A stretch of DNA of 22,483 nt from a virus. The translations under genes and the position numbers were made by a program. The DNA lies in IMG/VR virus record IMGVR_UViG_3300004457_000084, positions 1 through 22,483 of that record, one strand, 5' to 3'. Below, one piece after another: positions 7,067-22,324 of this stretch (the first letter of the stretch is position 1; every line of letters begins with the position of its first letter). The notes beneath the pieces are model-generated. The model was not told where the DNA came from. It was given only the letters and a program-made list of their open reading frames with translations, and made no database searches.

Positions 7067-9309
7067 TGGCGCGTGACATTGACGACGACGAGGCGATGGA
7101 CGACGTGGTGCGGATGGCGCACCGGTTCTACAAGCGGGGCAAGAGCGCGTCGTCCGAATGGCGGGCGGAAGCGCCGAAGTGGTACGACCTCGTAGCGAAT
7201 AAGCAGTGGGATGAGGACGATGTTGCCAAGATGTCGGAGCAGCGCCGCATCCCGGTCGTCATCAATCGTGTAGCGCGGACGGTCAACGCGATATTGGGGA
7301 CACAGGTTAACAATCGGCAGGAGACGCGGTTCATTCCGCGCGAGCAGGGCGACGTTCAGGTCAACGAGGTATTGACGGGCGCGGCGGACTGGGCGCGGGA
7401 CTGTTGTGACGCCGAGGACGAAGAAAGCGACATGTTCGAGGATGTGACGACGTGCGGCATGGGCTGGACGGAGACACACCTCGATTACGAGAAGAACCCG
7501 GAAGGCATGATCCTGATCGACCGGGTTGACCCGTTCGAGATGTACTGGGACCCGAGTGCGCGGAAGCGGAACCTGTCCGATGCGAAGTGGGTCATGCGGA
7601 TGGTGCGGTATGAGCGGGACGAGTTCGAGGCTCGCTGGCCTGATGCGGACGTGGATACGGCTGCGATGCCGTGGGAGGATGTGGACAACGACGAGGATGG
7701 CGACGGGACGCGGGGCCATGTCTACCCGCAGGACGCTTACAAGAATCAGCAGTCACGGAGCGGACGCGAGAAGGGGTCTACGATCCTGGTAGCGCATGTT
7801 CAGTGGCTTGAGCGGGTGCCGGTATACCGGATCGGGAAGAGCGCTGAGACGCTGGACGCGGAGAAGTTCAAGAAGCTGAAGCCGCGGCTCGATCTTGAGG
7901 GCATCCCGTACATGAAGCAGCAGAGCATCCGCTGGCGCGAGGCGTTTGTTGCGGGCGGGGAACTGCTGGAGGAGAAGGATTGCCCTTACGATAAGGGGCC
8001 GACGTTCAAGTGCACGACGTACAAGCGGGACCGGAACAAGAATAGCTGGTACGGGCTGGTTGCGGCGATGATGGACCCGCAGAAGTACGGGAACAAGTTC
8101 CTGTCGCTGGTGATGGACATCATCGTGAAGAACAGCAAGGGCGGCATCATGGCGGAGAAGGACGCCTTTGATGACCAGGCCAAGGCTGAGATGAACTGGG
8201 CGCAGCCGGATGCGATCGTTTTCATGCGCCCGGGGGCTCTTGCTGGCGGGAAGATACAGCCCAAGCCGCAGGTGAGTTTGCCGGCCGGGCTTGACAGGCT
8301 GATAGCCTACTTCCTGGACAGCGTTCACGAGGTGACGGGCGTCAATCTTGAATTGTTGGGCATGGCGAACCGGGAGCAGGCTGGCGTGCTGGAGACGACG
8401 CGCAAGCAGGCCGGAATTACGATCATTGCGCCGCTGTTCGATGCTCTGCGGCGCTATCGCAAGGAGCAGGGCCGGGTTCTGCTTCATTTCATAACGACCT
8501 ATTTGAGCGACGGGCGGCTTGTTCGCATCGTCGGGCAGGGCGGAGAGCAGTATGTCCCGCTCGTGCATCAGCCAGGGCTTGCGGAATACGATGTTGTTGT
8601 CGATGAGAGCCCAAACAGCCCGAACATGAAGGAAAAGACCTTCGGCGCGCTGGTGGAATTGATGCCGGCGCTGGCGAAAATCGGCGTGCCGATGCCGCCT
8701 GAATTGCTGGATTACGCGCCGATTCCGTCGAGTTTGGCGGCCAAGTGGAAGGAATTGATCGAGGCCAGCAAGGCTGCGGGCGATCCGAAGGTGGCGCAGG
8801 AACAGATGAAGAAGATGGGCCAGGAAATGCAGGCCCTTTCCGAGGAAAACAAGAAGCTGAAGGACAATCGCGAGATCGAGGCGGTCAAGCTGCAATCGCA
8901 GACGGTGCTAGCGCAGAAGAAGACCGAGGACGAGTTCGCGTTGGCACAACAGAAGATCGAGAACGAGTTCCGGCTTGCGCAACAGAAGCTTGTGCTTGAG
9001 CGGCAAAAGGCCGAGGCCGAATTGCAACTGGAGCGCGAGCGTGCGAATGCGGAACTGATGCTGGACCGCGAGAAGGCTGAAGCTGATCTGACGTTGCAGG
9101 GTGAGAAGACATCCGCCGAGATGGAGATGGGGCATCGGAAGTTCGAGACGGAGACGAAGTTCAAGACGGACGCCATCCGGGCGGAACGCGCTGCGAAGGA
9201 AGGCGACGATATTGGCGACGATGGACAGGTAAAGAAGAAGAGGAAGCGGGCGACAATTGAGCGTGATGCCAAGGGCGACATGATCGGCGCGATGATCGAG
9301 GATGAATAA
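7066..9309 (+). CDS. Portal protein (P22 gp1-like)
   Basis: The portal is the dodecameric ring at the capsid vertex through which DNA enters and leaves. The 747-residue product matches the P22-type family in its N-terminal half (PVVINRVARTVNAILGTQ, residues 63-80; then MFEDVTTCGMGW and DPFEMYWDPSARKRNLSDA). The central segment HEVTGVNLELLGMANREQAG is the usual stem/clip region. Residues 586 to about 705 form a long charged coiled coil rich in Glu, Gln, Lys and Ala, corresponding to the barrel that projects into the P22 capsid. A clear CAGGAG precedes ATG 7066. It lies directly downstream of the terminase, as expected. The coiled coil contains near-repeats around EFALAQQKIENEFRLAQQK. Confidence 0.93.
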   Translation: MARDIDDDEAMDDVVRMAHRFYKRGKSASSEWRAEAPKWYDLVANKQWDEDDVAKMSEQRRIPVVINRVARTVNAILGTQVNNRQETRFIPREQGDVQVNEVLTGAADWARDCCDAEDEESDMFEDVTTCGMGWTETHLDYEKNPEGMILIDRVDPFEMYWDPSARKRNLSDAKWVMRMVRYERDEFEARWPDADVDTAAMPWEDVDNDEDGDGTRGHVYPQDAYKNQQSRSGREKGSTILVAHVQWLERVPVYRIGKSAETLDAEKFKKLKPRLDLEGIPYMKQQSIRWREAFVAGGELLEEKDCPYDKGPTFKCTTYKRDRNKNSWYGLVAAMMDPQKYGNKFLSLVMDIIVKNSKGGIMAEKDAFDDQAKAEMNWAQPDAIVFMRPGALAGGKIQPKPQVSLPAGLDRLIAYFLDSVHEVTGVNLELLGMANREQAGVLETTRKQAGITIIAPLFDALRRYRKEQGRVLLHFITTYLSDGRLVRIVGQGGEQYVPLVHQPGLAEYDVVVDESPNSPNMKEKTFGALVELMPALAKIGVPMPPELLDYAPIPSSLAAKWKELIEASKAAGDPKVAQEQMKKMGQEMQALSEENKKLKDNREIEAVKLQSQTVLAQKKTEDEFALAQQKIENEFRLAQQKLVLERQKAEAELQLERERANAELMLDREKAEADLTLQGEKTSAEMEMGHRKFETETKFKTDAIRAERAAKEGDDIGDDGQVKKKRKRATIERDAKGDMIGAMIEDE

Positions 9310-10172
9310 TGGCCGGCACGAAAAACAATCAGGCGGAAAAGCTTAGCATTGAGCAAATGCGCGCGATGGCCATTGAGAACATGGCCTCGAATGCGCAGTT
9401 GCGGCTTCCGGCGTTGCCGGTGGTGAATGAGCACGACGGGGCTTTCGTCATCGTCGGCGGCGGGCCGTCTGTACTGTCGCGTCTTGGTGATATCGAGCGC
9501 AGGCAGAGGAATGGTGCTGCGGTTGTCGCGTGCAATGGCGCGAATTTGCTGTTGCGCAAGCACGGTATCGTGCCTGACTACGCGCTGTTTCTGGACCCGC
9601 AGGAGATCGTCGCGGACTACATCGAGGACGATGCCGGCGAAGAGACAACATACCTCACGGCGGTCATGCTTCACCCAAAGGCAATGGCAAAGCTGACAAA
9701 GCCGCACGTGTTTATGTTCCATGCCGAGATACCGGAAGCCATCGGCGAAAAATATCACGCGATGATACAGGAGTGGCCTGTCATCCCTACCTCGGTGGGC
9801 GGCTTCGGCAACACCGTTTGCCTTCGCGCCATCAACATCGGGCATTTGCTGGGCTATCGCGAGTTCCACTTGTACGGCGTGGATAGCTCCTATCCGAAGG
9901 GTGGGGCCGACCATGCCTATGTCAACTCTCACAGCGTCGAGCCTGACGCGATGGAAATCCGCTTCGATGGCAAGATGTACACGGCATCGCCATGGATGGT
10001 TGTCCAGGCGGACGATTTCAAGAAATACCATCTTCAATTCCATAACCTCGGGTGCCGCGTGAAAGTGCATGGCGATGGGCTGATGCCGGATATGTCGCGG
10101 CATTTGGACGCCAAGCGCACGAAATGGCTGATTTGGAAAACCTCTCGCGAACTGGTGTCCGCAAATGGCTGA
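9309..10172 (+). CDS. DUF115/Maf-like protein (possible glycosyltransferase)
   Basis: The 287 residues carry the DUF115 (6-hydroxymethylpterin pyrophosphokinase MptE-like) pattern. This is a nucleotide-binding GGGPS loop (AFVIVGGGPSVLS, about residues 45-57), an ALFLDPQE segment near residue 93, and SVGGFGNTVCLRAINIGHLL followed by HLYGVDSSY (about residues 162-195). Known relatives include flagellin Maf glycosyltransferases, which transfer nonulosonic acids, and archaeal MptE. The fold therefore does not fix the reaction; given the other sugar-transfer genes in this window, transferase activity is my inference. The start overlaps the portal stop (TAATG). The stop overlaps the next gene in ATGGCTGA. 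It interrupts the usual portal-to-scaffold order. Confidence 0.75.
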   Translation: MAGTKNNQAEKLSIEQMRAMAIENMASNAQLRLPALPVVNEHDGAFVIVGGGPSVLSRLGDIERRQRNGAAVVACNGANLLLRKHGIVPDYALFLDPQEIVADYIEDDAGEETTYLTAVMLHPKAMAKLTKPHVFMFHAEIPEAIGEKYHAMIQEWPVIPTSVGGFGNTVCLRAINIGHLLGYREFHLYGVDSSYPKGGADHAYVNSHSVEPDAMEIRFDGKMYTASPWMVVQADDFKKYHLQFHNLGCRVKVHGDGLMPDMSRHLDAKRTKWLIWKTSRELVSANG

Positions 10173-10971
10173 CACTAAAATCAGCGCGTTGCCGACCGAT
10201 GTGACGACGCTTGCGGCGGGGGACCGTTTCCCGATTGCCGATGTGAGCGCGAGCACGACGGACACGTATTGCACGTCCACGGAGATACAGACCTTTGCAT
10301 GCAATGCGCCGGTGTTCGCGGCAGGCTCCGCAAGCGCGAATAGCTGGCCTAAGCTGACGGTCGGCACGCTGTTGACGACAGCGGAAGACGGCGCCATCGA
10401 AATGGACGCCGATTGTCTGTACGGCTGCACGGACGCGGGCAATCGCGGCGTGATCCCGGTCATGCACTTCATTCGTGCGGATGCGGCGCGCAATCTGACC
10501 AACTCGACGGCAGAACAGAAGATATTCGATAGCCCGAGCGCCGGTAAGCTCGCCCTCGAAACGGGGTGCTACCGCTTCGAGGCGCAGCTTTACATCACGA
10601 GCATGTCCGGCACGTCCGGCAATGTGCGGTTCTCGCCGGTTGGGACCACCACATCGACCACGGCCACATCGGCGGCGTTCTTGTGGCATGCTTGGGGCAT
10701 CGACGCGACGGCGCCAACGACGGCGGCGACGCAGACGGGATCGTTCGCGGTAACCAGCCAGACGGCGGCAGCCGTGTCGCTTGTGACGGCGGCGACAGGG
10801 ACGGGGATGGGCGCGTCGATCAGCGGATCGTTCGAGATCAGCGGTGCAGGCAACATCGTGCCGACAGTCATTCTGTCCACGGCGGCGGCGGCAAGCATCA
10901 ATATTGGAACCTACATCGCCTATTGGAGGATTGGCAGCACGTCGGTCGCGAGCGTCGGGCAGTGGTCATAG
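10165..10971 (+). CDS. Virion protein, first copy of a tandem pair
   Basis: The 268-residue product begins with the TKISALP-type leader typical of phage head or tail decoration and fibre proteins. It continues with a conserved middle (GTLLTTAEDGAIEMD, then CLYGCTDAGNRGVIP, about residues 66-100). The last 140 residues are Thr/Ser/Ala/Gly-rich, beta-predicted, and end with a GSFEISGAGNIVPTVIL ... IGTYIAYWRIG pattern that resembles trimeric TNF-like or jelly-roll tip domains. The neighbour at 10972 is a clear paralogue over its whole length. Receptor binding or capsid/tail decoration is plausible. The start overlaps the DUF115 stop by 8 bases. Confidence 0.72.
   Translation: MADTKISALPTDVTTLAAGDRFPIADVSASTTDTYCTSTEIQTFACNAPVFAAGSASANSWPKLTVGTLLTTAEDGAIEMDADCLYGCTDAGNRGVIPVMHFIRADAARNLTNSTAEQKIFDSPSAGKLALETGCYRFEAQLYITSMSGTSGNVRFSPVGTTTSTTATSAAFLWHAWGIDATAPTTAATQTGSFAVTSQTAAAVSLVTAATGTGMGASISGSFEISGAGNIVPTVILSTAAAASINIGTYIAYWRIGSTSVASVGQWS
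10306..10325 (+). repeat. 20-bp direct repeat, copy 1 (paralogue pair)
   Basis: GCGCCGGTGTTCGCGGCAGG occurs here and again at 11110-11129, 804 bases apart, at the same codon phase in the two paralogous virion genes. A second shared run, AGCGTCGGGCAGTGG, ends both genes (10951-10965 and 11746-11760). These are remnants of the tandem duplication and possible recombination points. Confidence 0.85.
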
Positions 10972-11766
10972 ATGGCGAACAAGAAGATCACATCGCTGAC
11001 GGACGTGGTAACGCTCGCGGCAGGCGACCTCTTCGCCATCAACGACGTGAGCGCGGCCGGGGTGAACACGTTCGCCACGGCAACGGAGGTGAAAACCTTC
11101 ATCTGGACGGCGCCGGTGTTCGCGGCAGGGACTTCCTCGGCGAACACATGGCCGAAGTTCACATCCGGGACATTGCTTACGACAGCGGAAGACGGTGCGA
11201 TCGAGGTCGATACCAATTGCATTTACGGATGCACCGATGCGGGGAACAGGGGGGTAATCCCGCTCAAGCATTATATCCGCGCCGATGCGACGAACACGCT
11301 CACCAGCACGACAGCGCGGCAGAAGCTGTTCGCATCTCCTACAAACGGGACGCTGACGCTGGAAACGGGCGTCTACTTCTTCAATTGCCTGTTCCGTCTT
11401 TCGTCGATGAGCAGCACGAACGGGAATTGTTCCGTTTCGCCGAAGGGCGGCGGCACGGCGACAACCGGGAAGTGCCTGTCGCATTATTGGGGCTGGGACA
11501 ACAACGGCACGACGGCGAACAGAACCGTGGCGGGGTCGTTCACGGTGACGGCCTCGACGCTTTCGTCGGCGCCGGTCGTGACGGCGAACACTGCGACGGT
11601 GCTGGAATTGAGCGGGCGCGGATCGTTCGAGGTAAGCGGCGCTGGGACGATCATACCGTCGATTACGCTGCTGACGGCGGCGCCTGCCGTTCTCGGCATC
11701 GGATCGTATTTCGAGATTTACCGTGTTGGCGCAACAGGCGTCGTCAGCGTCGGGCAGTGGAGTTAG
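10972..11766 (+). CDS. Virion protein, second copy of the tandem pair
   Basis: This 264-residue protein is a paralogue of the preceding gene. It shares TDVxTLAAGD near the start, the APVFAAG and GTLLTTAEDGAIE blocks, C-x-YGCTDAGNRGVIP, a matching FEVSGAGTIIPSITLLTA strand region and the terminal SVGQWS. The variable parts lie mainly in residues 110-215, where sequence and length differ. This pattern suggests duplication followed by divergence of an exposed surface. ATG 10972 directly follows the stop of the first copy. It may form mixed trimers with the first copy or act as an alternative receptor-binding tip; neither can be read from the sequence. Confidence 0.72.
   Translation: MANKKITSLTDVVTLAAGDLFAINDVSAAGVNTFATATEVKTFIWTAPVFAAGTSSANTWPKFTSGTLLTTAEDGAIEVDTNCIYGCTDAGNRGVIPLKHYIRADATNTLTSTTARQKLFASPTNGTLTLETGVYFFNCLFRLSSMSSTNGNCSVSPKGGGTATTGKCLSHYWGWDNNGTTANRTVAGSFTVTASTLSSAPVVTANTATVLELSGRGSFEVSGAGTIIPSITLLTAAPAVLGIGSYFEIYRVGATGVVSVGQWS
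11110..11129 (+). repeat. 20-bp direct repeat, copy 2 (paralogue pair)
   Basis: Identical to the copy at 10306-10325 and located at the equivalent position of the second paralogue. Confidence 0.85.
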
Positions 11767-15276: not shown

Positions 15277-16398
15277 ATGGCAACTACGAATTTTCCCGTC
15301 AACCATCCCCAATCTGTAAAGATTTGGGGAAAAAAGCTCATGCGAGAGGCGCTGAAAGAGACCTATGTTTCGCGCTTCATGGGCTCATCCAAGGATTCCT
15401 TGATCTACGTCAAGGATGAACTCAACAAATCCGCCGGCGACCAGATAAAATACGGTCTCCGTATGCAGCTTACCGGCGACGGCATTACCGGCGACGGCAC
15501 GCTGGAGGGCAACGAAGAGGCGCTGACCACCTATCAGGACAGCATCCTCATCGACCAGCTCCGCCATGCGGTCCGCTCGGGCGGTGAAATGTCCGAACAG
15601 CGCATCCCGTTCTCGGTGCGCGAGGAAGCCAAGGACGGGCTCCGCGACTGGTTCGCGGCACGCCTCGACACATGGTTCTTCAACCAGATCACGGGCAACG
15701 TCCAGGCGCTTGCAGGCTATGACGGGAACAACACCCCGACGGTGCCGACGAGCGCGGCAGGCAATACCCGCATCATCTACGGTTCCGGGTCTACCTCCAC
15801 GACAGCCTCGTTCACTGCCACGACATCCAATTCGGCATCGGCGAAGGGCATTTCCTTCCACAACGGCCTTGGCGCCATCGACAAGCTGGTCAACATCGCC
15901 AAGACGGCAACGCCACTCATTCGGCCTATCAAGGTCGATGGAATGTCGAAGTACGTGATGTTCCTGCACCCCAACTCGGTGCGGCAACTCCGCAGCGCGG
16001 CCCTCAACACCACGAGCATCACATGGTTCGACATCATGCGCGCCCGTGCCGAGGGCGGCGATGTGAAGAACAACCCGATCTACAACGGGGCTCTTGGCGA
16101 GTACAACGGCGTGATCCTGCACGAAAGCACTCGCATCCCGGCCCTGACCACGGCCAACGGCGCGATGAGCACGAACGGCTCCGTCAAGATGAATGTCTTC
16201 TGCGGCGCTCAGGCGGCGTGTTTTGCCACCGGCAGGCGCGACAAGGACAGTCAAATGAAGTGGGTCGAGGAAATGTTTGACTACGAGAACCAGCTTGGTG
16301 TCAGTGCGGCGCTCATAGGTGGTTTGAAGAAAACCGTCTTCAACTCGGTCGACTTCGGCACAATCGTGTGCCTCACCCACTCTCCTGATCCGTCCTAA
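15277..16398 (+). CDS. Major capsid protein (N4 gp56 family)
   Basis: The 373 residues match the N4-gp56-type coat family. They include an N-terminal WGKKLMREALKETYVSRFMG segment (residues 17-36), a KSAGDQIKYGLRMQLTGDG strand region, then the helix RIPFSVREEAKDGLRDW (about residues 109-125). The later segments RPIKVDGMSKYVMFLHP and NGVILHESTRIP, and the C-terminal CGAQAACFATGR, also fit. The protein should form the HK97-like shell. It has its own ribosome-binding site and follows a structured leader, which fits high expression. The scaffold lies two genes upstream and a probable decoration protein directly downstream. Confidence 0.93.
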   Translation: MATTNFPVNHPQSVKIWGKKLMREALKETYVSRFMGSSKDSLIYVKDELNKSAGDQIKYGLRMQLTGDGITGDGTLEGNEEALTTYQDSILIDQLRHAVRSGGEMSEQRIPFSVREEAKDGLRDWFAARLDTWFFNQITGNVQALAGYDGNNTPTVPTSAAGNTRIIYGSGSTSTTASFTATTSNSASAKGISFHNGLGAIDKLVNIAKTATPLIRPIKVDGMSKYVMFLHPNSVRQLRSAALNTTSITWFDIMRARAEGGDVKNNPIYNGALGEYNGVILHESTRIPALTTANGAMSTNGSVKMNVFCGAQAACFATGRRDKDSQMKWVEEMFDYENQLGVSAALIGGLKKTVFNSVDFGTIVCLTHSPDPS

Positions 16399-16412: not shown

Positions 16413-16952
16413 ATGGCTACTGTTTCCTTTACTTTCAGCCAGTTGCATGGAAATCCCGGGGTTCCGGTTCCTCTGGTGCATACTTGCGTCAACGTCGCCG
16501 GCGCGGCTCTGTCTCTCGCGGTCAACACCTCGGCTTCGAGCGTGTTCCGCCTGCTTACGGTTCCGAACGGCACAACCCTCGTGGACTTCTGGCTGCGCGC
16601 ACAGACAGGCGGTGCAAACCAGACAATCGAGCTAGGCACGTCGCAAACGAGATCGGGCATCATGTCGATTACCACGGCATGCCAAACCTTCTCCATTTCG
16701 ACGCAGCCGACGGTTCCTACCGCAATGGGTGTCTTCAACCAGGGATGGTTCAGAGCCCCTGGCGGCACTCAGGGCGGCACAGGCGCCGTCACCGATCTGA
16801 TGCCGGTCCGCATATCGTTGTCCGACGATGTGCAGCCTGCTCAGGTCGACATCCTGATGAAGCTTGGCGTGGCTGTTTCAAGCTCCGCCTTCTTCACGTT
16901 CATGCTGTTTTACACGAACAACGGCATGAAGGGTCACACGACCATTCGTTAA
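16413..16952 (+). CDS. Putative capsid decoration protein
   Basis: A 179-residue beta-rich protein, high in Thr, Val, Ser and Gly, with no charged helices until the end (NNGMKGHTTIR). Proteins of about this size directly after an N4-type coat gene are commonly capsid cement or decoration proteins. A strong AAAGGAGGG (16397-16405) precedes ATG 16413, giving a signal for high expression like that of the coat. A strong hairpin begins five bases after its stop. I do not recognise a specific family, so the role is based on position, size and composition. Confidence 0.65.
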   Translation: MATVSFTFSQLHGNPGVPVPLVHTCVNVAGAALSLAVNTSASSVFRLLTVPNGTTLVDFWLRAQTGGANQTIELGTSQTRSGIMSITTACQTFSISTQPTVPTAMGVFNQGWFRAPGGTQGGTGAVTDLMPVRISLSDDVQPAQVDILMKLGVAVSSSAFFTFMLFYTNNGMKGHTTIR

Positions 16953-17005: not shown

Positions 17006-18484
17006 ATGGAATACGTCAAGGCAGACGATATCTTCCGCGAGGCCCGGTGCTATCTCGAAGGCGCTACGCCGGAAGGCGGGCCTCATCCGCGCGACCTTGC
17101 GCGGTCTGAGCGGCTGCTCCACGAGCTTTACAATCACAATTGGGGCTCCCATATCGTGCTTTACACGCTTGGAAGCCTTTACCTTGCCCGCGGCGATGTT
17201 GGCCTAGCAGCGACATTGTTGCAGGGCGTTACAAATTCTCACCCGGAATTCGGCGAGGCTTGGAACAATCTCGGGCTCGCTTTCCGAGACTTGGGCATGT
17301 GGAAGAAATCCGTCTATTGCACGGAAAGGGCGTCAAAGCTCATTCAAAACCCCGACATCCCGTGCAATTTGTCTGGCCTCCACATCACGCGGAACATGCC
17401 TGAAAAGGCTTTGGAGTATGCGGAACAGGCCCTTGCGGTCGATCCAGATCATATCAAGTCGCAATGGCACAAGGCCTTGGCGCTTCTGGAAATGCGCAAA
17501 TGGGACGAGGCCTGGGACTGGCACGAGACGCGGCTGAAGGGCGGCGCCAACGAGGACATCGCGCACCGGAACTACCACGGCGAGGAGCAGACGCCGGTAT
17601 GGGACGGCAAGACCAAGGGCAAACTGGTGATTCACGGCGAGCAGGGCCTTGGCGACGAGATCATGTTCGCCTCGTGCATCCCGGACGCCATCGCCACCGG
17701 CTGCGAGATTGTCTTCGAGCCCGCCCCGCGCATGGGCAATGTGTTCAAACGCGCCTTTCCGGCGATCGCGGTCTACGGCACGCACAAGGCTGACGGGCGC
17801 GAGTGGGTCGCAAAGCACGGCAAGCCTGATTTCAAGATTGCACTAGGTTCGCTGCCGAAGTTCTATCGTCGGTCAGCCTCGGCGTTCCCGGGAACGCCAT
17901 TTCTCAAGCCGGACAAGGCCAAGGCAAAGTGGTGGGGCCAGAAGTTGCACGCCCTCGGCCGCAAGCCGAATATCGGCGTGGCGTGGCAGGGTGGCGTGCA
18001 ATCGACCCGCTTCGACGCGCGGTCGTTCCATCCCTCGACCTGCATGCCGATGTTCTCCGTGGTCGATGCGAATTGGATATCGCTGCAATACGACATCACG
18101 GCGAAATCGTGCGTCGAGGACATGAAGCGCGCCGGGGTCGAGATTCACCACTGGCCGCGCGCGGTCGAGCAGTACGACCCGGAGACCAAGGTCCCGAACG
18201 ATATGGACGAGTTGATTGCGCTGGTGTCCAAGCTCGATCTTGTCGTGACCGTTTGTCAGACCGTGGTGCATGTGGCTGGCGCGCTGGGCGTGCCGTGCTT
18301 CTGCCTCACGCCATCGGAGCCGTCATGGCGCTATGGCGCGGGCGATGCGACCGACATGCCTTGGTACAATTCCGTCCGCCAGTTCCGGCAGGACAAAGGA
18401 ACGACTGATTGGGCGCCTGTCGTGGACAGCGTAGCCATAGAGGTGAACACATTTCTCAACACAAGGAAAACCGCGTGGGCGTGA
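17006..18484 (+). CDS. TPR-containing GT9-like glycosyltransferase
   Basis: The 492-residue protein fuses tetratricopeptide repeats (about residues 48-185, for example AWNNLGLAFRDLGMWKKSV and EKALEYAEQALAVDPDH) to a GT-B domain related to family 9, the ADP-heptose transferases. The GT part has GEQGLGDEIMFAS near residues 208-220, PNIGVAWQGG around residue 325 and a DLVVTVCQTVVHVAGALGVP stretch (about residues 411-430) matching the donor-site motif; SWRYG and PWYNSVRQFRQ follow. TPR plus GT-B is also the layout of protein O-GlcNAc transferase, although the catalytic family differs. The start is set at ATG 17006 because ATG 16952 would place the hairpin inside the gene. It is the first gene of a coupled cassette. 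Donor and acceptor are unknown. Confidence 0.85.
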   Translation: MEYVKADDIFREARCYLEGATPEGGPHPRDLARSERLLHELYNHNWGSHIVLYTLGSLYLARGDVGLAATLLQGVTNSHPEFGEAWNNLGLAFRDLGMWKKSVYCTERASKLIQNPDIPCNLSGLHITRNMPEKALEYAEQALAVDPDHIKSQWHKALALLEMRKWDEAWDWHETRLKGGANEDIAHRNYHGEEQTPVWDGKTKGKLVIHGEQGLGDEIMFASCIPDAIATGCEIVFEPAPRMGNVFKRAFPAIAVYGTHKADGREWVAKHGKPDFKIALGSLPKFYRRSASAFPGTPFLKPDKAKAKWWGQKLHALGRKPNIGVAWQGGVQSTRFDARSFHPSTCMPMFSVVDANWISLQYDITAKSCVEDMKRAGVEIHHWPRAVEQYDPETKVPNDMDELIALVSKLDLVVTVCQTVVHVAGALGVPCFCLTPSEPSWRYGAGDATDMPWYNSVRQFRQDKGTTDWAPVVDSVAIEVNTFLNTRKTAWA

Positions 18485-19017
18485 CAATTTCCGAGAATTA
18501 CAGGGATCAGAACCGGCAACTGCATGAGACAAATGCCTCGTACGGCAACGGGATTGCCTCAGAGTATTGGTTCCCGCTGATTGAGGGCATCGCGAAGGAT
18601 TTGGACGCCGCGGCGGTGCTGGACTATGGGGCCGGGAAGCAGGCGATGGCGCGCAAGCTGCCGGGGCTGCTGATTGTCAGCTACGATCCGGCTGTTCCGG
18701 GCATCGACGCGACTCCTTCGCCGGCAGACTTCGTTGTCTGCAACGACGTGCTGGAGCATATCGAGCCTGAAATGCTGGACGCGGTGCTGGACGATCTGCA
18801 GCGTCTCGCCATCAAGGGCGTGTTCCTGTCCGTCTGCGTGGCGCCTGCGGGCAAGCTTCTCCCGGACGGGCGCAACGCGCATCTTATCCAGGAGCCTGCC
18901 GATTGGTGGCTCCCCAAGCTCATGTCGCGCTGGAAACTCCAGATGTTCCACCTTCACAAGAAGGGCGGCACATTTGGCGTGTTCATGCTGCCCAAGAAAA
19001 ACAAGGTGCGAGGATGA
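18475..19017 (+). CDS. Class I SAM-dependent methyltransferase
   Basis: The 180 residues contain a Rossmann-type methyltransferase core: motif I VLDYGAGKQ (about residues 47-55), an acidic strand end SYDP, and motif IV DFVVCNDVLEHIEPE (residues 85-99), followed by VFLSVCVAPAG. Such small phage enzymes often act on sugars or proteins, but no substrate-recognition domain is visible. GTG 18475 is seven bases after AAGGA (18463-18467); GTG 18481 would overlap the previous stop as GTGA. The stop overlaps the next start (ATGA). Its place between two sugar-transfer genes suggests O-methylation of a glycan. That is inference. Confidence 0.78.
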   Translation: MGVTISENYRDQNRQLHETNASYGNGIASEYWFPLIEGIAKDLDAAAVLDYGAGKQAMARKLPGLLIVSYDPAVPGIDATPSPADFVVCNDVLEHIEPEMLDAVLDDLQRLAIKGVFLSVCVAPAGKLLPDGRNAHLIQEPADWWLPKLMSRWKLQMFHLHKKGGTFGVFMLPKKNKVRG

Positions 19018-19805
19018 AACACTGGTTTCTTGGCTGGGATGCCCGCGACGATCTGGCGGCTCAAGTCGCCATCCGCTCTGCGCTCAAGACGGCGCGCAAC
19101 CCTGGCAATATCAAGGTTCACTTTCTCAAGGACCATGAATTGCGCCGGGCAGGCATCTATTGGCGGGCCTATGAGGTTCGCCCGAACGGCCAGCGCATAG
19201 ACATCGGCGACGGCAAGCCGTTCTCGACCGATTTCAGCTTCTCGCGCTTTGCCGTGCCGGAACTGGCGCGGATGATGGGCATTCACGAGCCGGTCCTGTT
19301 CACGGACCCGGACGTGATGTTCCGCGCGCCTATCGAGGAACTGTTCGAGCGCTACGACGAGAAATATTCCGTCATGTGCATCCCGCACGACCACACGCCG
19401 AAGGAAATGACCAAGTTCGACGGCATAGAGCAGACGCGCTATTTCCGCAAGAACTGGTCGAGCGTGATGCTGATGCACCCTGACAAGGCTTCCGGTCTTA
19501 CCCCGCAGAAGGTCAACAACTGGCCGGGCGCGCAACTGCATGCACTATTGTGGGCTGTCGATAGTGAGATAGGCACCGTCGAAATGAGTTGGAACCATCT
19601 CGTCGGGTACGACGAGCCGAACTCGAATGCGAAGTTAGTACACTTCACACTAGGAACGCCTGACGTTCCTGGGCGCGAGAATGATGAGTTTGCCGCCGAG
19701 TGGCGCGGCTATGTAGAACCGGGCGAAATGCCGGTACACTTTGCGGCCGATGGGCAGGCCAGGATCAAGGCCGCCATCGGCGGCTATAAGCGTGGCGGGC
19801 CATGA
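19014..19805 (+). CDS. GT-A type glycosyltransferase-like protein
   Basis: The 263-residue protein opens with HWFLGWDARDDLAAQVAIRS (residues 3-22), a pattern found in GT8-like transferases that begin on a DxR/DxRE strand. It has a metal-binding DxD motif in LFTDPDVMFRAPIEELFER (Asp98 and Asp100) preceded by a conserved SFSRFAVPELARMMG. Later it shows SWNHLVGYDEPN and VHFTLGTP, which fit the C-terminal acceptor/phosphate side of the fold. It should transfer a sugar from a nucleotide donor, but the sugar is not determined. ATG 19014 overlaps the methyltransferase stop. The stop overlaps ATG 19802. Confidence 0.75.
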   Translation: MKHWFLGWDARDDLAAQVAIRSALKTARNPGNIKVHFLKDHELRRAGIYWRAYEVRPNGQRIDIGDGKPFSTDFSFSRFAVPELARMMGIHEPVLFTDPDVMFRAPIEELFERYDEKYSVMCIPHDHTPKEMTKFDGIEQTRYFRKNWSSVMLMHPDKASGLTPQKVNNWPGAQLHALLWAVDSEIGTVEMSWNHLVGYDEPNSNAKLVHFTLGTPDVPGRENDEFAAEWRGYVEPGEMPVHFAADGQARIKAAIGGYKRGGP

Positions 19806-19837
19806 GGCGCCGTCAGATCATCAAGGAGAAAATGGCA

Positions 19838-20062
19838 ATGGCAGGCAAATCTCACTCTTACCGCGCTGGTCCCAACTTTGCCGGGAACAAAACGAACCGC
19901 GGCCAGGAAACGAACCGCAGTGGCGATCAGCAATTGGTCAAGGCGGAAGGCACGCACATGTCGGGCGGCGGCACGCCGAAGAAGAACCCGAGCATGGCCG
20001 GGAAAAAGACCAAATCCGGCAAGCTGCAGCTTCGCCCGTCGTCCTATCTCGGCAATAACTAG
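19838..20062 (+). CDS. Small basic protein (74 aa)
   Basis: A Lys/Arg/Asn/Gly-rich, disordered-looking protein (AGKSHSYRAGPNFAGNKTNR at residues 2-21; later KKNPSMAGKKTKSGK). ATG 19838 is nine bases after AAGGAG (19823-19828) and is my preferred start. ATG 19802, overlapping the glycosyltransferase stop as ATGA, would add 12 residues. The composition suggests nucleic-acid or acidic-surface contact in the virion, but no family is recognised. Confidence 0.6.
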   Translation: MAGKSHSYRAGPNFAGNKTNRGQETNRSGDQQLVKAEGTHMSGGGTPKKNPSMAGKKTKSGKLQLRPSSYLGNN

Positions 20063-20072
20063 GCCGCCGTGA

Positions 20073-20822
20073 GTGAGCGACACAAACGCCCTGAGAGCCC
20101 GCATCGCGAGCGAACTCAATCGTTCGCTTACGGATGATTTCGGCAATTCGGGCGAGACGTTCGCAACGGCGGTTAACCGTGAGATCAACAACGCAATCCG
20201 TCATTATGAAGCGGTGCGCTTCCGCTGGAACGAGGTTCTGCCGGCATCTCAGTTTCAGACGACGGTATCGGGAACGCGCAGCTACTCCATGCCGCAAGTG
20301 TTCACGCGGATAGACACGCTCAAGCTTGTCTATAACGGGAACTACATCACGCTGAACAAGCGCAACCTTGCCGAGATTGACGGGACTGACACCAAGGTGA
20401 CGGGCGCTCTTGGTGTTCCGAATGTGTACTGCATTTACGGGAACCAGGTCCGCCTCTATCCCGTACCGAATGGGGCCTACACACTGGTTGCCACGGGCAT
20501 ATCGAGCCCGATGCCGACAAGCGTGACGGGCTCCTACACTGCCGTTGAGACGGTGCCTCCCCATAGTCTCACGGTAACGTCCACTGCGTCGCACAATGCC
20601 CGTCGCGATGGCTGGACGAGCGCGGGCGCGGATTTGATCTGCGCCCGCGCTAAGGCCGCGATCCAAGTCAATTACCTTCGCGACCAGATCGCGCTTATCG
20701 AGATGGGGACGCTTGCGGGGACGGATTTTCTCTCGCTCCGGGAAAAGCAGGCGTTCAACCGGCATCGCGCGGCGAGCGCTGAATTGCAGGCCACGGGGCG
20801 GATACTGGGGTACGATCTGTGA
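20073..20822 (+). CDS. Head-tail adaptor protein (P22 gp4-like)
   Basis: The 249-residue protein begins with helices LRARIASELNRSLTDDFG and FATAVNREINNAIRHYEAVRF, the pattern of phage tail-adaptor proteins that bind beneath the portal. A beta-rich middle follows (VSGTRSYSMP ... TRIDTLKLVYNG ... PNVYCIYGNQVRLYP), and then a C-terminal helical part (CARAKAAIQVNYLRDQIAL). Its position before a gp10-like gene fits the P22 order gp4-gp10. GTG 20073 is the only possible start because TGA precedes it directly. The stop overlaps the next gene as GTGA. Confidence 0.72.
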   Translation: MSDTNALRARIASELNRSLTDDFGNSGETFATAVNREINNAIRHYEAVRFRWNEVLPASQFQTTVSGTRSYSMPQVFTRIDTLKLVYNGNYITLNKRNLAEIDGTDTKVTGALGVPNVYCIYGNQVRLYPVPNGAYTLVATGISSPMPTSVTGSYTAVETVPPHSLTVTSTASHNARRDGWTSAGADLICARAKAAIQVNYLRDQIALIEMGTLAGTDFLSLREKQAFNRHRAASAELQATGRILGYDL

Positions 20823-22324
20823 GCAAGCTCACACTCCCCTTCGGCAAGCTGCTCCCGGATCGCGCGGCATTCCGCAGCGAGGGATTGACGATTGCGAAGA
20901 ATGTCGTGCCGCATGAGCCTGGCTCATATGGGCCGTTCCGCAGTCTGGTCGAGGTCTCGAACGCTCTAAGCGCGCGCTGCTATGGCGGCGTCTCGGCGCG
21001 CGACAAGGATAACAACGTCTTTGTTTATGCGGGCGATAGCTCGAAGCTTTACGAGCTTGTGGGCAGCACGTTCACCGACCAGAGCAAGGGCGGCGGATAC
21101 ACTCTTGCGGCGGACGATATATGGGAATTCGCCGTCTGGTACAAGAATAACAAGGTGTTCGCGACAAATCTCACGGACCCGGTTCAATCCATGGGGACGG
21201 GGCTTGGGTCGAGCACGGCCTTTGCCGATCTGTTCACGAGCACGGCCAAGCCGAAAGGAAAGCATATCGCCATCATCGGGAACTTCCTGATGCTCGGGAA
21301 CACGAACGATGCAACGGACGGCCAGCAGGCCGCCCGGGTCTGGTGGTCGGCATTCGGCGACGAGACGGACATGGACCCGGACGCGGCAACTCAATGCGAT
21401 TATGAGGACTTGGCCGCCGGCGGATGGGTTCAGCGCATCGTTGGCGGCACGGAATATGGCTTGGTCTTCCAGCAGGATATGGTCCGCACGGCGCGCTATG
21501 TCGGTGCCGGCGTCGTGTTCGAGCTGCTGCCGATCAACAATGCGCCGGGCACGCCGATCCCGAATAGCGTCATCGCACACAAGGGTCGCGTCTTCTACAT
21601 CGCGGAAGACGGTTTCTTCGCCTTCAACGGCGGCGCGGTCGAGCCTATAGGCACGTCGCAGATAGACCGCTATTTCTGGGACCAGTTCGACATCACGAAC
21701 AAGCGCGCTGTCACCGCCGCGATAGACCCTATCAAGAAGCTCGTATGCTGGGGATTCCCTGGATCGGGGGCCGTGGCCGGGCTGGCAAACCGAATCCTCA
21801 TGTACAAGTGGGACGAGGGCCGCTGGTCAGAGGCCGAGGTAGATCACGACATCCTCTTCCGCACGGAAACGGCAGGCTACACCCTGGACACCCTCGACAC
21901 GGTCGGGACCAGCATCGACGACAGCAGCGCCTTTCCGGTGTCGTTCGATGCTGACCGGTGGAAGGGCGGCTCGCTCCGCTTCGGGGCGTTTACGGACACG
22001 CACAAGCTGGCGTTCTTCACGGGCTCTACGCGCGGCGGCAGCATCGAGACGGGCGACGTTCAGCCGGTCGACGGGCAGCGCTGGCAGGTCAATTCCGTGC
22101 GGCCTCTGGTCGACGGCGGCGACGTTGGAATATCCGTCGCGACACGCTCGCGGCTCAAGGACACGGTGAGTTACGGCACTGCGTCCACGATGAACGCGGA
22201 CGGGCTGTGCAATTACCGGCGCGAGGGGCGCTATCATCGCTTCCGCGCGTCTCTGACGGCCTCGACATCCTGGGAGCATATCCAAGGCGTGCAGATCGAC
22301 TACGAATTGACGGGTGAGCGGTGA
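20819..22324 (+). CDS. P22 gp10-like tail/DNA-stabilisation protein
   Basis: The 501-residue protein has the family start (FGKLLPDRAAFRSEGLTIAK, residues 8-27). Repeated beta blades follow, with segments such as NNVFVYAGDSSKLYELV, HIAIIGNFLMLGNTND and GRVFYIAEDGFFAFNGG, consistent with a beta-propeller, and the C-terminus is beta-rich. In P22, gp10 forms a ring under the adaptor, helps keep DNA in the head and connects to the tailspikes. The start GTG 20819 overlaps the adaptor stop (GTGA). The stop overlaps the next start (TGATG). Homology to gp10 is by pattern and gene order. Confidence 0.82.
   Translation: MSKLTLPFGKLLPDRAAFRSEGLTIAKNVVPHEPGSYGPFRSLVEVSNALSARCYGGVSARDKDNNVFVYAGDSSKLYELVGSTFTDQSKGGGYTLAADDIWEFAVWYKNNKVFATNLTDPVQSMGTGLGSSTAFADLFTSTAKPKGKHIAIIGNFLMLGNTNDATDGQQAARVWWSAFGDETDMDPDAATQCDYEDLAAGGWVQRIVGGTEYGLVFQQDMVRTARYVGAGVVFELLPINNAPGTPIPNSVIAHKGRVFYIAEDGFFAFNGGAVEPIGTSQIDRYFWDQFDITNKRAVTAAIDPIKKLVCWGFPGSGAVAGLANRILMYKWDEGRWSEAEVDHDILFRTETAGYTLDTLDTVGTSIDDSSAFPVSFDADRWKGGSLRFGAFTDTHKLAFFTGSTRGGSIETGDVQPVDGQRWQVNSVRPLVDGGDVGISVATRSRLKDTVSYGTASTMNADGLCNYRREGRYHRFRASLTASTSWEHIQGVQIDYELTGER

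Follow-up and report, generated by a model that had tools for sequence, protein, structure and literature searches.

What does a set of sugar- and methyl-transferring enzymes do inside the head operon of a phage? The question is raised by three overlapping genes in the viral record IMGVR_UViG_3300004457_000084, the whole of which (22,483 nt; 22.5 kb) is the window analyzed here. The window carries genes of podovirus type (P22-type portal, Sf6-like small terminase, Phage_capsid_3 capsid, SU10/gp4-like adaptor, and gp10-like protein). Between its capsid and adaptor genes lies a cassette that encodes a TPR-containing GT9-like glycosyltransferase (TPR-GT9), a methyltransferase (MT), and a GT8-like glycosyltransferase. 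Reading the biochemistry from the genes alone, we think it probable that the cassette serves to glycosylate the virion: the TPR enzyme would glycosylate an adjoining structural subunit, the GT8-like enzyme would extend the glycan, and the MT would cap it. The cassette and the structural genes around it are as follows (aa, amino acids).

15277..16398, plus strand: major capsid protein (MCP; Phage_capsid_3, E = 1e-64); candidate substrate
16413..16952, plus strand: small virion structural protein, probably a decoration protein, directly downstream of the MCP gene; candidate substrate
17006..18484, plus strand: TPR plus GT9-like (GT-B) glycosyltransferase, 492 aa; candidate initiating protein O-glycosyltransferase
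18475..19017, plus strand: class I S-adenosylmethionine (SAM) methyltransferase, 180 aa, alternative start at 18481; candidate sugar O-methyltransferase
19014..19805, plus strand: GT8-like GT-A glycosyltransferase, 263 aa; candidate extending transferase
20073..20822, plus strand: head-tail adaptor, gp4-like (SU10_adaptor, E = 3e-13); downstream border of the cassette slot
20819..22324, plus strand: gp10-like virion structural protein (phrog_3287, E = 1e-72); downstream border of the slot

All three cassette open reading frames (ORFs) are intact in the window. Their coordinates, common strand, and coupling are as the initial annotation had given them, as is their place between structural genes (MCP and the small protein) and the adaptor gene. 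The TPR-GT9 and MT genes overlap by 10 bases if translation of the MT starts from the GTG at 18475, or by 4 bases if the GTG at 18481 is used, and the MT and GT8-like genes overlap by 4 bases (ATGA at 19014-19017). Short gene overlaps by themselves are ordinary in phages.

Relatives of the TPR-GT9 and GT8-like proteins were found by profile searches of viral contigs; single-sequence searches of these contigs with the two proteins gave no matches, so that profiles were needed, and a distant DNA search found only the MT of a Caulobacter phage. The profiles led to the complete trio in 91 distinct viral loci. In every one of them the genes share one strand and TPR-GT9 comes first; the order TPR-GT9/MT/GT8 holds in 76, and 88 adjoin homologues of the window MCP or of its adaptor/gp10. 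The search for the same gene set and position that had been suggested for this locus was thus successful. Because dozens of divergent phages have the same genes in the same order and position, the arrangement is not due to chance, and we regard the cassette as real and correctly placed. Two earlier statements do not survive this result. First, the claim that P22-like phages have no genes in the slot fails for this lineage, since many environmental relatives carry the cassette. Second, its composition, described as without known parallel, is widespread and not peculiar to this phage.

Scattered, unlinked occurrence of the genes had been named beforehand as evidence against a cassette, and this description fits one family of the three. 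TPR-GT9 and MT are strongly linked, whereas the GT8-like family is widely found alone or beside DUF115, a family discussed below. Among 80 viral loci anchored on TPR-GT9, both partners lie within 3 kb on the same strand in 49, only the MT in 12, only the GT8-like gene in 13, and neither in 6. Among 80 viral loci anchored on the GT-A gene, the other three genes are all absent from 43, which makes the GT8-like family broader than the cassette.

The slot can also be viewed from the capsid side, in 53 contigs that have at least 4 kb after the MCP gene and were chosen by capsid similarity alone. TPR-GT9 is in the slot in 38 of the 53 and the full trio in 30, and 15 have no cassette. The distance from MCP to adaptor has a median of 3.7 kb with the cassette and is mostly 0.4-1.3 kb without it. 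Cultured relatives without a cassette, by a TPR-GT9 profile that had a positive control, are phages of Paracoccus, Rhizobium, Microcystis, and Pseudanabaena; the capsids of cassette-bearing and cassette-less relatives are alike about 50-70% identical to the window MCP. Most of the additional genes in the slot encode sugar- or methyl-related enzymes (FkbM and rhamnosyl-type O-methyltransferases, GDP-mannose dehydratase, GT1-like, and GT29-like). Radical-SAM/SPASM proteins also recur in the MCP-adaptor slot of cassette-bearing phages (L126, L159, L185, L222, and L341).

What kind of enzyme leads the cassette? The 17006-18484 protein has an N-terminal TPR domain (residues 1-185) whose repeats are clearly significant (Pfam, E = 1e-11) and a C-terminal GT-B domain, the architecture of FlmG/OGT-like enzymes. 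Its Glyco_transf_9 match is weak (E = 0.009; 15.9 bits versus a curated cut-off of 22), and a comparison with 1psw gives E = 0.15 with the motifs aligned, so by sequence the catalytic domain may be called GT9-like at most. Yet its relatives, 12 of 44 of which match Glyco_transf_9 at E <= 0.1, and its fold support a GT9/GT-B identity. The AlphaFold2 (AF2) model (pLDDT, the predicted local distance difference test score, 93.7) has as its closest PDB folds SPINDLY, OGT, and XcOGT, with E down to 6e-12 and low global template-modeling (TM) scores of 0.3-0.4, which indicate that the domain orientation differs and that the TPR part contributes strongly to the fold match. The likeness to GT41 is in fold only: at E <= 0.1 there was no sequence match of the TPR enzyme to Glyco_transf_41. 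Two motifs, GEQGxGDE and D-x10-H-x2-G, are conserved across the relatives, and D217, D411, and H422 of the window enzyme are among the conserved residues. By its modeled fold and FlmG-like layout, the enzyme appears to resemble cytoplasmic protein O-glycosyltransferases.

Bacterial relatives of this enzyme indicate what such proteins may act upon. We fetched 79 bacterial loci by TPR-GT9 sequence only, not by neighbors; not every one of them is independent of the others. A type IV pilin gene lies within 1.3 kb of TPR-GT9 in 13 of them (median 145 bp; same strand in 11 of 13), where about 0.15 in 79 would be expected by chance, an expectation derived from the 56 pilin matches that 30 of these genomes gave over about 121 Mb. 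Seven more loci have a flagellin gene within 3.6 kb, and two further loci have one within 10 kb. Of the 13 pilin loci, 8 have a GT8-like gene and 3 an MT. On the enzyme tree, the pilin label changes at least eight times and the flagellin label at least three times, on well-supported branches. By contrast, a single set with support 96 contains the phage enzymes linked to capsid genes, which make up 39 of its 41 rows. One enzyme family beside three self-assembling subunits fits a subunit-modifying protein glycosyltransferase and is not what a transferase acting on lipopolysaccharide (LPS) would predict. We suggest that a TPR-GT9 gene beside a pilin gene, often with a GT8-like gene nearby, is a candidate cytoplasmic pilin-glycosylation locus; such loci occur in betaproteobacteria and Methylococcus (L255, L256, L258-L262, L264, L266, L273, L275, L282, and L286; e.g., L273:167-2227). 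In Azospirillum, an ORF of about 1880 aa (L303:9131-14782) that contains a TPR-GT9 homologue adjoins a flagellin gene.

The same neighborhoods could mean that the phage enzyme glycosylates host pilin or flagellin and so remodels its own or its rivals' receptor. We consider this improbable: the phage enzymes form a clade separate from the bacterial ones and adjoin capsid genes instead, and a late head-operon position would give little time to remodel filaments.

The two partner proteins can be classified as well. The MT reaches the Pfam cut-off of Methyltransf_23 (E = 4e-6; 27.0 bits at a cut-off of 27), matches phrog_24759 (methyltransferase; E = 1e-18), and has the family signature DVLEHIEPE...LPDGRNAHLI. 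The GT8-like protein matches phrog_28018 (E = 2e-56); it has no Pfam match itself, and Glyco_transf_8 is found in 34 of 43 relatives (best 2e-7), so that its earlier GT-A label held and is modestly refined to GT8-like. It carries a DxD motif (D98, D100) and a histidine (H210), both invariant in the family, and its AF2 model (pLDDT 92.4) has PDB fold matches to WbbM, LARGE1, GlyE, LgtC, and glycogenin. Catalytic-looking motifs are kept in all three cassette proteins, none of which therefore looks decayed. None has a long hydrophobic segment (maximum 19-residue mean hydropathy 1.9), consistent with cytoplasmic enzymes.

Could the MT be in the cassette by position only and act on RNA, by Hen1-like 2'-O-methylation? 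Its profile does match HEN1 (E = 7e-5), but the D/E-x2-EH motif that the two have in common belongs to class I methyltransferases in general. Moreover, the MT family recurs in glycan-type gene neighborhoods, beside or fused to glycosyltransferase-type genes, including 14 ORFs from viral loci in which it is fused to DUF115. These fusions and neighborhoods argue that a glycan is methylated, and we give RNA methylation a very slim chance.

The window has a DUF115 gene of its own, near the portal gene, which had been counted as part of the system.

9309..10172, plus strand: DUF115/MptE-like, Maf/PseD-related putative glycosyltransferase (PF01973, E = 4e-21)

Its product matches PseD (E = 3e-12; 46 bits, below the curated NCBIfam cut-off of 670) and, by profile, the Maf structure 5mu5 (E = 1e-10), with which only the central domain is shared. 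Among 67 loci having portal, MCP, and TPR-GT9, just 3 have a DUF115 gene, and by Pfam 3 of 23 records do. We therefore rejected DUF115 as a fixed fourth member of the cassette; it is a sporadic accessory. The functional link that the earlier proposal implied is nevertheless real with respect to the MT, given the 14 fusions. Of the candidates for initiating glycosylation of a protein, the TPR enzyme is the best, ahead of DUF115. A 904-aa phage ORF (L010:7149-9863), upstream of a tail-fiber-like gene, fuses DUF115, a cassette-type MT, and an FkbM-like domain, and its C-terminal part resembles, by eye, a 2-oxoglutarate (2OG) oxygenase.

Which molecule, then, receives the sugar? Phage glycosyltransferases can modify DNA, as cited in PMC12619734, and the transferases might glycosylate hydroxymethylated phage bases against restriction. 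Thymidylate-synthase-family (base hydroxymethylase) genes were absent from 17 cassette-bearing records, mostly fragments, in which controls were detected; Tet/JBP had zero matches in cassette-bearing records, where its control gave none either. Neither the TPR architecture nor the capsid position fits DNA hypermodification, which we regard as highly improbable.

Two virion proteins encoded immediately upstream are candidate acceptors. The MCP has a stretch rich in serine and threonine (Ser/Thr) at residues 168-188, a candidate site, and the small protein (16413-16952) is 22% Ser+Thr. Small proteins of cassette-bearing phages align with those of the cassette-less group (hhalign probability 96), including the KLEP18-1 "structural protein"; we take a decoration role for the window protein to be likely on this and its position.

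Several findings weigh against a virion target. Phages with and without the cassette do not differ in overall MCP Ser/Thr content. The MCP stretch has 6.8 Ser/Thr with the cassette versus 4.5 without (naive p = 1e-7), and the small protein has 22.9% versus 20.8% (naive p = 0.003), differences that are non-significant after allowing for relatedness (3 independent pairs). We therefore rejected MCP Ser/Thr content as proof of the target. The GT8-like and MT families are also found in phages by tail-fiber genes or alone. Cassette trees track the MCP loosely (Mantel r 0.15-0.34, versus 0.79 for MCP and portal), which also fits a module exchanged for host reasons; strict co-inheritance with the capsid is thus rejected, though on the MCP tree the cassette is gained or lost only 6 times. 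Finally, GT8 and GT9 are classic LPS-core families.

These points bring in the main alternative, that the GT9- and GT8-like enzymes modify host LPS or O-antigen, with a methylated terminal sugar, and thereby block superinfection or re-adsorption to debris. The freer exchange of cassette genes than of capsid genes speaks for it, and it has parallels: GT8 genes of pelagimyophages have been interpreted as O-chain modifiers (PMC7029224) and glycosyltransferase clusters of cyanophages as modifiers of outer polysaccharide (PMC7824862). The slot, however, is fixed inside the head operon, and the bacterial relatives adjoin pilin and flagellin genes. The window and 17 cassette-bearing records gave no GtrA flippase in a search that detected its positive controls, a result that also counts against O-antigen modification, although modification of core LPS would need no GtrA. 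To our knowledge, a TPR domain is unusual for LPS transferases. On balance we judge an LPS target unlikely.

A linked glycosylation and O-methylation cassette with a likely virion target, as originally put forward, therefore appears supported by linkage and position in the sequences compared. The observations above cover which genes are present and how they are ordered, linked, and placed, together with the folds, the conserved motifs, and the subunit-gene neighborhood; the acceptor, site, reaction order, sugar, O-linkage, and biological benefit that follow are what we infer. During infection, in the host cytoplasm, the TPR domain would dock on new copies of an abundant structural protein from the neighboring genes, either the MCP or the small protein, and the GT-B domain would transfer the first sugar, taken from a host nucleotide sugar, most probably to Ser/Thr. 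The GT8-like enzyme would then add a further sugar and the MT would O-methylate the glycan as a cap, and the particles would bear a methylated surface glycan. An evenly balanced case can be made for a broader class of TPR glycosyltransferases that modify an adjoining repeated subunit: pilin or flagellin in bacteria, and the capsid or decoration protein in a widespread lineage of environmental podoviruses, as an O-methylated-glycan module in a fixed head-operon slot.

One further ORF lies between the cassette and the adaptor gene.

19802..20062, plus strand: basic ORF, 86 aa; 4-base overlap with the GT8-like gene

Among the fetched loci, it has a clear homologue in L104 only, and it probably belongs with the adaptor rather than with the cassette. 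Elsewhere in the window, tandem genes at 10165-10971 and 10972-11766, between the DUF115 gene and the scaffold region, encode products that are 56% identical and gave no Pfam, NCBIfam, or PHROG match where searched; they are possible virion fiber or decoration paralogues. Near the left end are genes for a GcrA-like cell-cycle regulator (6-263, E = 1e-10) and a DnaA C-terminal DNA-binding domain (1266-1682, E = 4e-19), which suggest an alphaproteobacterial host. Through such genes the phage might adjust cell-cycle transcription or the start of replication in its host.

The existence of cassette-bearing and cassette-less relatives with similar capsids makes the question of virion glycosylation directly testable, and the fixed capsid-adjacent slot predicts which uncultured phages carry surface glycans. 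The cassette also offers soluble enzymes whose TPR domain may recognize capsid, pilin, or flagellin subunits. In view of these results, a phage glycosyltransferase should not be labeled an O-antigen or DNA modifier by default.

How does the cassette compare with known systems? In the open-licence literature, we found no description of a head-operon TPR-GT9/MT/GT8 cassette or of the pilin, flagellin, and capsid neighborhood of its lead enzyme. The closest phage is ctDrO704 (MW202512.1), a complete metagenome-assembled podovirus with the same three genes in the same order and MCP-adaptor slot, at about 35-45% protein identity; it differs in having an endonuclease gene between TPR-GT9 and MT and no DUF115 match, and its annotations recognize no cassette. 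Caulobacter jumbo phages (CcrColossus, C1, CcrPW, and CcrSC) have adjacent GT8-like and MT genes, in CcrColossus also an annotated family-9 transferase, but these GT8-like/MT genes lie downstream of tail-fiber genes, and no TPR-GT9 relative was found by profile in CcrColossus or C1. Gtr serotype-conversion cassettes are likewise phage glycosyltransferase clusters, from which the window cassette differs in its soluble enzymes, its head-operon location, and the lack of a detected GtrA. SPINDLY and other O-GlcNAc transferases (GT41) and XcOGT, the best PDB matches, combine TPR and a GT-B fold as the window enzyme does, but differ from it in domain orientation (low global TM) and in Glyco_transf_41 sequence, which it does not match.

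The experimental precedent for TPR-docked subunit glycosylation is FlmG of Caulobacter crescentus, whose N-terminal TPR binds flagellin and whose C-terminal GT-B domain carries out cytoplasmic O-glycosylation (PMC7591256). Likened by layout, FlmG and the phage enzyme share their domain order and a multi-copy structural protein as target, proposed in the case of the phage. FlmG differs in acting on flagellin with pseudaminic acid, and the text consulted on it names no GT8 or methyltransferase partners. On the phage side, mycobacteriophages Che8, Corndog, and Myrna use their own glycosyltransferases to put glycans on capsid and tail proteins (Freeman et al. 2023, as reported in PMC12363180 and PMC11256854), and glycoproteins were detected in XacN1 (PMC5852040). 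Compared by description only, the mycobacteriophage systems have other hosts, the transferases of the cluster F1 phage Maravista lie near the genome 3' end, and a TPR/GT8/methyltransferase composition does not appear in the text consulted on them. Phage-directed virion glycosylation is thus already known in a few cases, and the head-operon cassette is probably a variant of such systems.

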